Under the pieces are notes generated by a model. The model saw only the letters and a list, made by a program, of their open reading frames with translations. It was not told where the DNA came from and did not search any database. A DNA stretch of 30,493 nt from a virus: positions 1 through 30,493 of IMG/VR virus record IMGVR_UViG_3300028394_000232. One strand, given 5' to 3'. Below, one piece after another: positions 25,771 through 28,055 of this stretch (positions within the stretch are counted from its first letter, which is position 1; the number at the start of each line of letters is the position of its first letter). Position numbers and translations under genes: made by a program.

Positions 25771-25960
25771 TTGATTTTCCTTTAATAAAGTTGTATATAG
25801 CATTTGCGTTAAAGAGCAGCTCTTCAACTGACCCATCGGAGTACTTGTTCTGTTTCATCAAAACAAGTGCCTGATCTACCGCACGCTCTCGGTAGAACAT
25901 TTCATCGCGTTCCTTGCGGAACTGCATTTCCATTGTGGTTATCTCGGTGTTGTCGTCCAT
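25763..25960 (-). CDS. Small acidic helical protein, 65 aa
   Basis: A 65-residue protein with GGAGG six bases before its ATG, inside the end of the upstream gene. The sequence is helical and charged: MQFRKERDEMFYRERAVDQA, then LVLMKQNKYSDGSVEELLFN. It overlaps the genes on both sides (start at 25960 shared with the previous stop, end over the first 8 bases of the SSB candidate), which supports it as real. Its function is not recognised; small proteins between recombination and replication genes in phages are often accessory or host-takeover factors. Confidence 0.6.
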   Translation of the reverse strand: MDDNTEITTMEMQFRKERDEMFYRERAVDQALVLMKQNKYSDGSVEELLFNANAIYNFIKGKSNE

Positions 25961-26355
25961 TACTTCCTCCGAATGGTGATTTCATATTCCCGATCAATGT
26001 TCAAACCCATAGGTTCAACATCGGGGTTGTTCTCTAAGAACTCTTTCATATTCGTTTGATGAATACGTTTCTCCAATAGCCCCATTGCTTCATGCTCTTG
26101 CATAAATTTATAGAAGCTTTCCCAGTCATTAGTCCAGAAGCGGTCTTTGACGGTTCGATACGCAGTGCCCTGCGGTGTTGAAAAGCTAGTCACGCCAGTC
26201 TCTTTCGAGACCTCAAGTAACTTGTGCTTTAGGATAGTCATCTGCTCCTCTAACTGGGCAGACTCGGCTTTGTACTTTGCGTACATTGCTTCTTTGGTGT
26301 CGCGAATCTTAATGTAAGCCTCGACGACTTTCTCAATAGAAAATTCTGATTCCAT
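25960..26355 (-). CDS. Coiled-coil protein, 131 aa, first gene behind the strong promoter
   Basis: The chosen start is ATG 26355 with GGAG 7 bases upstream; a longer frame reaching 26439 begins with TTG inside the structured leader and is rejected. Residues about 5-55 form a helical, Lys/Glu-rich region (VVEAYIKIRDTKEAMYAKY, then QLEEQMTILKHKLLEV). The C-terminal half has TSFSTPQGTAYRTVKDRFWT, then WESFYKFMQEHEA, LLEKRIHQTNMKEFLENNP and a beta ending YEITIRRK. This coiled-coil plus small domain plan occurs in phage early proteins found beside recombination or SSB genes. The biochemical role is unknown. As the first gene downstream of the promoter and leader at 26356-26517, it is probably strongly expressed and leader-controlled. 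Confidence 0.68.
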   Translation of the reverse strand: MESEFSIEKVVEAYIKIRDTKEAMYAKYKAESAQLEEQMTILKHKLLEVSKETGVTSFSTPQGTAYRTVKDRFWTNDWESFYKFMQEHEAMGLLEKRIHQTNMKEFLENNPDVEPMGLNIDREYEITIRRK

Positions 26356-26482
26356 ACTCACTCCAATTTGTTTTTTATAGGTGTTGATGATGTGTTCACA
26401 TAAAGCAGTGGAGTCCGTCCTTCCTATGTATTTGCACAAAACTAGGAAGATGCGGCGCTAACCCGCATTACACATCATCAAC
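26356..26482 (-). promoter_or_regulatory. Structured 5' leader: candidate cis-regulatory RNA
   Basis: Read on the minus strand, the transcript predicted from the promoter begins at or next to 26482. Its first 13 bases, GTTGATGATGTGT (26482-26470), pair perfectly with ACACATCATCAAC (26395-26383), closing a domain of 100 bases. Inside lie two directly adjacent hairpins: ATGCGG/CCGCAT (26468-26463 with 26455-26450, 7-base loop) and CTTCCTA/TAGGAAG (26449-26443 with 26426-26420), which can extend inward to a UUU/AAA pair with a GUGC loop. A 24-base joining strand follows and contains ACTCCA (26414-26409), complementary to TGGAGT (26365-26360), the ribosome site of the next gene. The result is a three-way junction with a possible switch. 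No T run follows, so it is not a terminator. The class is not one I recognise. Confidence 0.6.
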
Positions 26483-26489
26483 GAAAATC

Positions 26490-26517
26490 ATTATACTCTT
26501 TTTGTTGACAATGTCAA
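26490..26517 (-). promoter_or_regulatory. Strong sigma70-type promoter for the replication operon
   Basis: On the minus strand TTGACA (26517-26512) and TATAAT (26495-26490) are both perfect consensus hexamers with a 16-base spacer. The -35 box overlaps the stop codon of the helicase gene 26514-28055. Transcription should start near 26483-26482, about 127 bases before the ATG at 26355. It is the only full consensus promoter I could find in the window, and it lies in one of the few real intergenic gaps. Confidence 0.8.
26505..26517. promoter_or_regulatory. Palindrome over the -35 box, candidate operator
   Basis: TTGACA-A-TGTCAA on the plus strand is a perfect 6-1-6 inverted repeat that contains the whole -35 hexamer. 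A dimeric repressor bound here would block RNA polymerase. Half-sites of this size occur by chance a few times in 30 kb, so its weight comes from exact placement on the promoter. The HTH protein encoded at 24662-24904 is an obvious candidate binder; a host regulator is equally possible. Confidence 0.45.
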
Positions 26518-28055
26518 GAGTTAATTTCACTTTTATACAGATCAATAATCTTGTTGTGGAAGTCCAATTTGTTTTGCAACATTCCGTAGAGTTTTGTTTC
26601 TACTGGACTACCTTCAAGATGTACGATCGTCATAGGGTTACGCTGACCCGGCCTATCGATACGTGCGTTTGCTTGCAAGTATGTTTCAATCGACGTGACA
26701 GGAGCGTACCATACGATTACGTTTGCCGCAGTAAGGGTTACCCCATGTGCCGCCGCTTGTGGTTGAATCAAAAGTACTCGTGGCTCCTCTTGCTCTTGAA
26801 ATCTTTTAAAGATGTCGGTACGCTTTGACACGCTTACAGAGCCATTGATAATCTCTGACGTTACTTTATTCTTAGTTAGGAAATCCTGTATTAAAGCTAA
26901 CGTGTGCGTGAACGGCACAAACACTAGAACTTTATGGCTTGCCTCCTCAATAACTTCTAACAAAATGTTTAATCGGTTCGATGCGTCAAACTCTATGACA
27001 TTCTTGGTATCTGTATACACAGCCCCGCAGGAGATTTGTAATAGTTTGTTTAGTTGAGCCGCCGCATTCACGGCAGAGACTTCATCGCCAACTGCTTCAA
27101 TCAGCATCTCTTTCTTGAGGTCTTTGTAGTACTTAGACTGCTGTGGTGTTAGCGGAGTGAACCGCGAAGTGTGCGTCACATCAGGTAAGTCAATGCAGTC
27201 TTTCTTCTCAAAGCGAATTGCAGGTTGCAAGAGGTTGTGCACTATGCCTTGGGCTTGCGGTTTTGGAATCCATTTGAATCGTGAGAACTGATACATCACA
27301 ACATCGCGGAACGCTGTGTACAAGTGTGGGGTTCTTGCGGGTACGCATAGTTTGGCAAGGCCGTAGGCATCTAATGGTGATTGAGCTGCGGGTGTACCAG
27401 TCATCATCCATATCCAAGTATCAGGAGTGGTTACTCTTCTTAACGTTTTAAAACGCTCAGTCCTAGAGTTCTTGTAGGCATTGGCTTCGTCAATGATGAT
27501 GAGGTCAAACCCACCAGCCTTGAGTTCTTCTTCAACAATGCTCACACCGTCGTAGTTAATGATGACGTACTCGGCGATGCCTTCAACAATAGCCTTACGT
27601 TTCTTGCGATCTCCGTGTGCCACATCTACGTGGCGATGGACAGCAAATTTAAACAAGTCGGCTTGCCATGCGGCTTGCATGATGGACACAGGACAGATAA
27701 CCAATACCCGTCGTATGTATTCCTGCTCAAGCAGGTAATCCGATGCCCAGATAGCTGATGCAGTCTTACCAGTACCTTGTTCGTTAAAACAAAAAGCGCG
27801 TGGGTGTAGAGTCAGAAAGGATGCGGTATCCTTTTGGTGGTTCATTGGCCTATAGAGTCCGGGCCAGTCATAGTCTCGCTCAATCGGGGAGGGTACGCCT
27901 TCCCAACCAAGCGTCTTTAGCATCTGTGCTTCTTTCAGTCCCCAATGAACAGCCACCGAATCCTCGGTGTACTCGGCACTCTTAGCGATAGTCGAGAGAA
28001 TCTTCTGTGGCTCTTCAGTCTGTATGACTAAGTATTTGTTTTCAACTACTTGCAT
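26514..28055 (-). CDS. SNF2/DEAD-like helicase (SF2 ATPase), 513 aa
   Basis: A 513-residue SNF2-family helicase or translocase. RPMNHQK (69-75) precedes Walker A NEQGTGKT (91-98). Other motifs are CPVSIMQAAW (121-130), Walker B as LIIIDEAN (185-192, DEAN instead of DEAH), MTGTP (218-222), and in the second RecA-like domain VLVFVPFTHTLA, then TAANVIVWY and motif VI QANARIDRPGQ. These are all expected ATPase elements. Compact, single-chain SNF2 proteins are common in phage early regions and probably remodel or translocate on DNA during replication or recombination. The start overlaps the previous gene by 14 bases without a strong ribosome site, suggesting coupling. Confidence in the family is high; the exact biological role is not known. 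Confidence 0.9.
   Translation of the reverse strand: MQVVENKYLVIQTEEPQKILSTIAKSAEYTEDSVAVHWGLKEAQMLKTLGWEGVPSPIERDYDWPGLYRPMNHQKDTASFLTLHPRAFCFNEQGTGKTASAIWASDYLLEQEYIRRVLVICPVSIMQAAWQADLFKFAVHRHVDVAHGDRKKRKAIVEGIAEYVIINYDGVSIVEEELKAGGFDLIIIDEANAYKNSRTERFKTLRRVTTPDTWIWMMTGTPAAQSPLDAYGLAKLCVPARTPHLYTAFRDVVMYQFSRFKWIPKPQAQGIVHNLLQPAIRFEKKDCIDLPDVTHTSRFTPLTPQQSKYYKDLKKEMLIEAVGDEVSAVNAAAQLNKLLQISCGAVYTDTKNVIEFDASNRLNILLEVIEEASHKVLVFVPFTHTLALIQDFLTKNKVTSEIINGSVSVSKRTDIFKRFQEQEEPRVLLIQPQAAAHGVTLTAANVIVWYAPVTSIETYLQANARIDRPGQRNPMTIVHLEGSPVETKLYGMLQNKLDFHNKIIDLYKSEINS

Follow-up and report, generated by a model that had tools for sequence, protein, structure and literature searches.

The window analysed here, a 30,493-nt stretch of viral DNA, carries on its minus strand a SNF2-type helicase gene followed by a gene for a 131-aa protein, which matches DUF7307 below that family's cut-off. 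The leader between the two genes is preceded by a consensus promoter (26517-26490, minus strand; 12/12 matches, 16-nt spacer). The -10 box ends 7 nt before 26482, so the predicted +1 is the first base of an outer helix, P1, as the first-pass annotation had read it. P1 is formed by a 13-bp inverted repeat (26482-26470 with 26395-26383) that was reported there as perfect and is indeed 100% complementary, enclosing 74 nt. Folding of 26482-26340 gave -42.7 kcal/mol (z = -4.15), which none of 200 shuffles equalled. The MFE structure contains P1, the two inner hairpins that had been described, of 6 bp (P2) and 7 bp (P3), and a third small hairpin, P4 (Table 1). The 24-base joining strand of that description exists, but it is not wholly unpaired: it holds P4 (26410-26397), which is kept in relatives.

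Table 1. Features of the leader in the window, followed by noncoding elements near module copies at other loci (locus handle before the position)
Feature	Position	Strand	Basis or remark
Upstream gene, SNF2-type helicase	26514..28055	-	family search
-35 TTGACA	26512..26517	-	overlaps 3' end and stop codon of helicase gene
-10 TATAAT	26490..26495	-	promoter scan
P1 5' arm (13 nt), beginning at predicted +1	26470..26482	-	inverted repeat, covariation, per-copy P1 scoring
P2 hairpin ATGCGG/CCGCAT, loop GUUAGCG (26462-26456)	26450..26468	-	MFE, covariation
Kissing-loop strand AGC, loop L2	26457..26459	-	loop-pair scans, covariation
P3 hairpin CUUCCUA/UAGGAAG, in variable linker; optional, outside conserved core	26420..26449	-	MFE
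ACTCCA, proposed anti-SD; overlaps P4, unconserved	26409..26414	-	4/17 relatives
P4 hairpin CAC-UGCUUUAU-GUG	26397..26410	-	MFE, support from relatives
Kissing-loop strand GCU, loop L4	26404..26406	-	loop-pair scans, covariation
P1 3' arm	26383..26395	-	inverted repeat, covariation, per-copy scoring
Shine-Dalgarno (SD) TGGAGT, outside P1	26360..26365	-	sequence
First gene after leader, 131 aa, phrog_13900 (label: minor head protein)	25960..26355	-	family search
Second noncoding sequence	L178:8670-9060	+	sequence comparison
Second noncoding sequence	L181:3160-3525	-	sequence comparison
Second noncoding sequence	L253:5380-5600	+	sequence comparison
Second noncoding sequence	L078:6725-6980	+	sequence comparison
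Alternating-stem array	L178:7560-8470	+	by eye
Alternating-stem array	L166:5080-5540	+	by eye
Alternating-stem array	L074:810-1130	-	by eye
Small RNA-like unit	L074:670-810	-	by eye
Small RNA-like unit	L178:8490-8660	+	by eye
Small RNA-like unit	L253:5230-5370	+	by eye

Sequence comparison places the leader in a family of structured RNAs from Burkholderiales phages, which lies outside Rfam and which we call new. Two short core patterns found many viral matches, and in most of those listed both cores are present, in the same order and enclosed by outer stems that vary. A model built from 70 copies (R1) was run on 86 + 81 = 167 sources and gave 91 and 80 matches, of which 7 and 4, respectively, were left out as weak or truncated (16-27 bits). 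In the first run the kept matches scored at least 35 bits and the others at most 24; in the second, one truncated, left-out match scored 27 bits and the others at most 17. The 160 retained matches lie in 143 of the 167 sources. Removal of 4 without a clean core and of 15 near an end or duplicated left at least 141 deduplicated copies of the unit, hereafter the module, nearly all on viral contigs and a few in Burkholderiales genomes. Collapsing near-identical copies gave 87 representatives, one of which has no flanks, so that 86 entered the P1 statistics. The module occurs in 35 of 45 whole viral records, once in 26 and twice in 9 (in one of these at both record ends).

Rfam 15 at gathering score matched the module neither in the window nor in 32 other module-bearing loci, where tRNAs were the only Rfam matches. 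A lax scan of the window returned four matches, all far below threshold; one of them was a PreQ1 riboswitch match on the other strand, at 10.9 bits far below its 39. Against isolated phages, blastn of the leader gave 13 short matches with E of 0.1 or worse, and nothing matched when the Achromobacter copies and one array served as queries. The longer array of L178 hit 231 phage records, and the matches listed fall in its tRNA stretch. The literature search, which covered few subscription journals, found no description of the motif, and the six papers listed as containing a core string were all, judged by title, on other subjects. The earlier description of a candidate structured RNA of no recognised class is supported by the compensatory changes, the many members and the absence of an Rfam match.

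In the family fold, as the comparison of copies shows it, P1 encloses P2 and P4, the loops of which pair with each other, and a variable linker separates the two hairpins. The parts follow in the order P1, P2 (loop GUUAGCG), linker, P4 (3 bp, loop UGCUNNAU) and P1'. Aligning homologues, the check that the first-pass annotation had proposed, revealed compensatory changes in every core helix (P1, P2 and P4). Alignment A1 (70 of 84 usable representatives) has double-sided changes in 16 of 17 pairs, with 269 double-changed cells vs 105 in shuffles and a covariation score of 0.503 vs 0.152. Alignment A2, in which the loop contact is treated as a pseudoknot, holds 73 sequences: 58 from A1 and 15 new ones, including one (L284) whose P1 fails the filter of the kissing-loop scans. 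Here 17 of 20 pairs change on both sides, and the score is 0.464, against 0.142 for shuffles and 0.073-0.186 for slid registers. All five counted pairs of P2 vary on both sides, with 97.3% of cells paired; in P4, every cell is paired and 2 of 3 pairs vary on both sides.

P1 itself ranges from 6 to 28 bp, and arms such as GTTGGTGG recur among copies. Scored copy by copy, its median complementarity is 25, as against 10 when partners are swapped and 8 when flanks are shuffled (86 copies); it exceeds 99% of shuffled flanks in 68 of the 86 and does not in 18. With the register picked on Watson-Crick pairs, P1 contains 41 G.U vs 2 A.C cells (86 copies), and in the fixed register of A2 it contains 37 G.U and 16 A.C cells and 134 other mismatches; P2 in A2 has 12 G.U vs 1 A.C. 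The excess of G.U over A.C in both helices points to RNA of this strand as the molecule. RNAalifold on A2 predicted P2 and P4 and missed P1, probably because the register of P1 shifts between copies. From the GCC core to P4, counting the last P2 bases, the 87 representatives span 15-63 nt with differing folds, and neither the length nor the sequence of the linker is conserved; loops L2 and L4 are nearly invariant. Of the two inner hairpins described first, P2 belongs to the conserved core and the 7-bp P3 is the least conserved element. The conserved core consists of P1, P2, P4 and the loop-loop contact, the last two of which had escaped the first-pass annotation.

Covariation and loop-pair scans show L2 and L4 to be kissing loops (AGC:GCU). 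The one varying pair of this contact is A-U in 63 and G-C in 10 of the A2 sequences and unpaired in none; the remaining two pairs are invariant. Because the G-C rows mostly came from a pattern that demanded the pair, the real control is the scans for mismatched combinations. In viral contigs, raw pattern scans found 28 stretches for GGC:GCC, 2 for AGC:GCC, 16 for GGC:GCT and none for AAC:GTT, all four scans being complete. After filtering for P4 and P1, 10 distinct GGC:GCC members remained (nine viral and L272), as against 0 for AGC:GCC and 1 for GGC:GCT; AGC:GCT, for which the figure is a lower bound, has at least 141. Four GGC:GCT stretches have a 3-bp P4, and one of them, the GC-rich L322, also passes the P1 filter. 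The model detected L272, which lies in a bacterial genome, without help from the GGC:GCC pattern, and the loops of this member (L2 UCGGC, L4 UGCCUCAU) carry the double change that a pairing of AGC with GCU predicts. This double change and the A2 covariation exclude a chance origin.

In Burkholderiales phages the module is found ahead of unrelated genes, between genes, beside or within tRNA arrays and in noncoding stretches. Of the R1 matches, 29 are flanked by the helicase gene on one side and a gene homologous to that of the 131-aa protein on the other, and 10 precede a 108-120-aa gene. Other downstream genes, mostly named by eye, encode small HTH proteins (6), terminase-like (4) and glutaredoxin-like (4) proteins, with single cases of an acyl-carrier-like gene and a primase. 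A start codon with an SD-like box lies within 110 nt downstream in 68 of 160 copies, and more than half therefore have none. A tRNA-Met lies 11 nt downstream of the module in L204 and L212, in L183 the module stands between tRNA-Pro and tRNA-Thr of a five-tRNA array, and 10 of 90 loci scanned with ARAGORN have a tRNA within about 1 kb. Of the 141 copies, 42 have a promoter-like pair of boxes so placed that the -10 ends 3-9 nt, and mostly 6-7 nt, upstream of P1; 20 of these belong to the helicase site and 22 to other sites. Control offsets gave 0-7 copies at nine of ten and 13 at +120. Terminators lie within 150 nt upstream of 32 of the 141 copies vs 28 of 423 random 150-nt stretches, and a position 23-25 nt behind a terminator recurs. 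Within 250 nt downstream, terminators follow 10 of 141 copies, no clear enrichment over the same 28 of 423 random 150-nt stretches.

Bacterial genome contigs gave three matches: in a beta-proteobacterium, a Burkholderiales bacterium and Achromobacter dolens LMG 26840. The last, itself among the sources of R1, carries two tandem copies beside lysis-type genes and between convergent genes (both judged by eye). Around this isolate, matches were found in 7 of 268 genomes of its family (E 1e-5), in 4 of 399 of its order (E 0.001, two of them weak) and in 1 of 369 of its class, which is LMG 26840 itself; searches of more than 40 genomes use stricter filters that lose weak matches. By eye, several of the copies in bacterial genomes have phage-type genes nearby, RecT among them.

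Other noncoding elements accompany some copies (Table 1). A second conserved noncoding sequence of a few hundred nt (CGTACTCCRYACGWTAGYAAG ... GCGCGGAAG ...) stands behind some module arrays and in L181 carries a tRNA-like insert. Its core pattern has at least 120 matches in viral contigs, with a clear module in 2 of 72 new loci. Rfam matched this core neither in 14 loci (the module-bearing L253 and 13 that were not chosen for the module) nor, besides the tRNA insert, in L181. By eye, we also noted arrays of alternating stems (GCATGGGGATTG/CAGTCCCCAGC and GTGTTGGTGG/CCACCAACAC) with variable contents, namely modules, tRNA-like parts and unknown RNA, and small RNA-like units that stand between the module array and the second RNA and combine a promoter-like box with a long terminator hairpin. 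At L260:1440-1620 (+) and L194:9230-9370 (-), a CCCGGAAAGACGGG hairpin precedes a module with an extended P1 (CCATCA/TGATGG), perhaps as part of a larger RNA (by eye).

The helicase site allows module-bearing and module-less relatives to be compared. The 131-aa gene is present in 31 loci, one of which (L012) is too short to show the leader; the remaining 30 comprise 17 with the module, 8 with a plain 5' hairpin in the same place and 5 with neither. The hairpin was assigned by sequence in these 8 of the 13 module-less loci, and six of the 8 were folded. Relatives show a compensated change in P1 (GTTGATGATGTGT/ACACATCATCAAC vs GTTGGTAGCGCGT/GCGCGTTACCAAC). On the gene tree, in which 4 of 21 inner branches are well supported, the module state changed at least five times (bootstrap 5-7), and three of these changes are forced by well-supported branches. 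An identical 393-nt gene follows the module in L019 and L022 and a plain hairpin in L021. Such near-identical phages with and without the module at one locus amount to a natural experiment. Among isolated phages that carry a gene homologous to the 131-aa one, R1 found no match in Xp15, Rollin or Effie, and a match in a Rhizobium phage (16 bits, E 0.006) was taken for chance. At the homologous helicase-gene junction of Xanthomonas phage Xp15 (L263:3812-3940, +), a different long hairpin leader was seen by eye.

Going beyond the fold, its predicted placement at +1 and its distribution, we infer with a probability of about 0.45 that the module forms an autonomous accessory RNA domain of phage transcripts, which a factor shared by Burkholderiales hosts recognises, and does not serve as the switch of a particular gene. 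In such a scheme, (i) the knotted core, whose loops hardly vary, would be recognised by the host factor, for example an RNA-binding protein, a nuclease or a ribosomal component, (ii) the module would be delivered as an mRNA 5' end or as a processed or free small RNA, and (iii) P1 at the extreme 5' end would also shield the transcript, a plain hairpin taking over upon loss of the module. The near invariance of the loops favours a specific partner, and the replacement by a plain hairpin suggests that the core is accessory and that a 5' helix is useful by itself. A point against autonomy is that the 68 copies close before an SD-bearing gene also fit a role in cis. We prefer the accessory domain to a clamp in cis, and the latter to antitermination.

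The module might also represent a new class of mobile knotted RNA that acts in trans on a conserved host factor of Burkholderiales, as its decoy or its inhibitor, and so serves counter-defence or the takeover of the host; it would pass from transcript to transcript by exchange at the outer helix. We consider this a tentative idea. The records of L007, L017, L018, L031, L023, L029 and L030, seven of the 13 loci that lack the module at the helicase site, contain no second copy elsewhere, so any trans role would be dispensable in these phages, with the reservation that the records may be incomplete.

A similarly doubtful possibility is a clamp in cis, in which the knot would protect or insulate its own transcript, shielding its 5' end from RppH and RNase E and the junctions between cistrons or tRNAs from exonucleases, and would keep the next ribosome binding site open. 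The promoters that set P1 at +1, the SD-like starts (13-31 nt behind the module in most examples shown), the plain 5' hairpin retained by module-less relatives and the known stabilising effect of 5' helices on mRNA (PMC3997798) all agree with such a role. However, a mere stabiliser would hardly require two nearly invariant loops, a plain hairpin can stand in for the module, and many copies have no close downstream gene.

Processive antitermination in the manner of HK022 put, in which the nascent RNA would bind RNA polymerase and carry it past terminators and untranslated arrays, is unlikely. In phage operons and noncoding arrays, the module forms an RNA of about 70-100 nt close to the promoter, and put is about 70 nt long, follows early promoters and works without a dedicated protein (PMC9378689). 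But the architectures differ, R1 finds no match in HK022, downstream terminators are not clearly enriched, plain hairpins substitute for the module and two Achromobacter copies lie between convergent genes.

We regard a riboswitch, thermosensor or SD-sequestering leader of the 131-aa gene, the regulation proposed originally, as highly improbable. ACTCCA (26414-26409) is indeed complementary to TGGAGT (26365-26360), and the pairing is possible in the window and four close relatives; P1-P2-P4 with kissing loops also resembles purine riboswitches. Yet ACTCCA occurs in only 4 of 17 module-bearing relatives at this site and overlaps P4, which the pairing would break, the SD lies outside P1, and more than half of the 160 copies have no SD-bearing start within 110 nt; SD sequestration was rejected on these grounds. 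Unrelated downstream genes, too diverse for a metabolite riboswitch, the conservation of the loops and not of the linker, the occurrence in tRNA arrays and the lack of an Rfam riboswitch match at gathering score likewise speak against a ligand switch. A DNA-level element (for recombination, replication or protein binding at a palindrome), or chance, can practically be dismissed: the module state does switch at a fixed site and P1 arms do recur, but the G.U to A.C ratio in P1, its predicted placement at +1 and the kissing-loop covariation argue for RNA.

The earlier interpretation as a whole is therefore partly supported, and the significance of the module exceeds what it had stated: this is a widespread RNA family, not a single leader. 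The accessory-domain reading aside, what the analysis yields is a well-supported RNA family whose loop-loop contact covaries; it is found in many phage contigs and some Burkholderiales genomes and is unmatched by Rfam. Because two copies lie in a named isolate, A. dolens LMG 26840, tests of binding partners and stability are feasible at once.

Among known RNAs, tRNAs have a 7-bp acceptor stem and a T-arm; a tRNA or a tRNA mimic with a fixed acceptor was rejected, since P1 varies in length and ARAGORN found no tRNA in the window. Purine riboswitches, which control purine genes, have an enclosing helix, two hairpins with kissing loops and a conserved three-way junction as ligand pocket. The module shares their topology only, that is, the outer helix, two hairpins and kissing terminal loops, and differs in having no conserved junction, a 3-bp P4, a long variable linker, no Rfam match and inconsistent downstream genes (named by eye) that are not purine genes. 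Proteo-phage-1 RNA (RF03044) is, by its Rfam name, likewise a small structured RNA of proteobacterial phages, but its consensus and structure are different and it matches none of the 32 module-bearing loci; it was found in L327, a locus without the module. The T4 tRNA cluster holds stable RNAs of unknown function, which resemble the module as non-tRNA RNAs within a phage tRNA operon. A stabilising stem-loop at the 5' terminus is also known from ompA. Helices at the 5' end stabilise mRNA, as with the papA-type 5'-terminal stem-loops (PMC3997798). The module is like the ompA and papA types in placing a helix at the extreme mRNA 5' end, its +1 being predicted (42 of 141 copies), and unlike them in its conserved knotted core and specific loops and in its occurrence in tRNA arrays and between genes. 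With HK022 put it shares the character of a phage RNA of about 70 nt after early promoters; the fold of put, as described in PMC9378689, is two stem-loops in a V shape and differs from that of the module.
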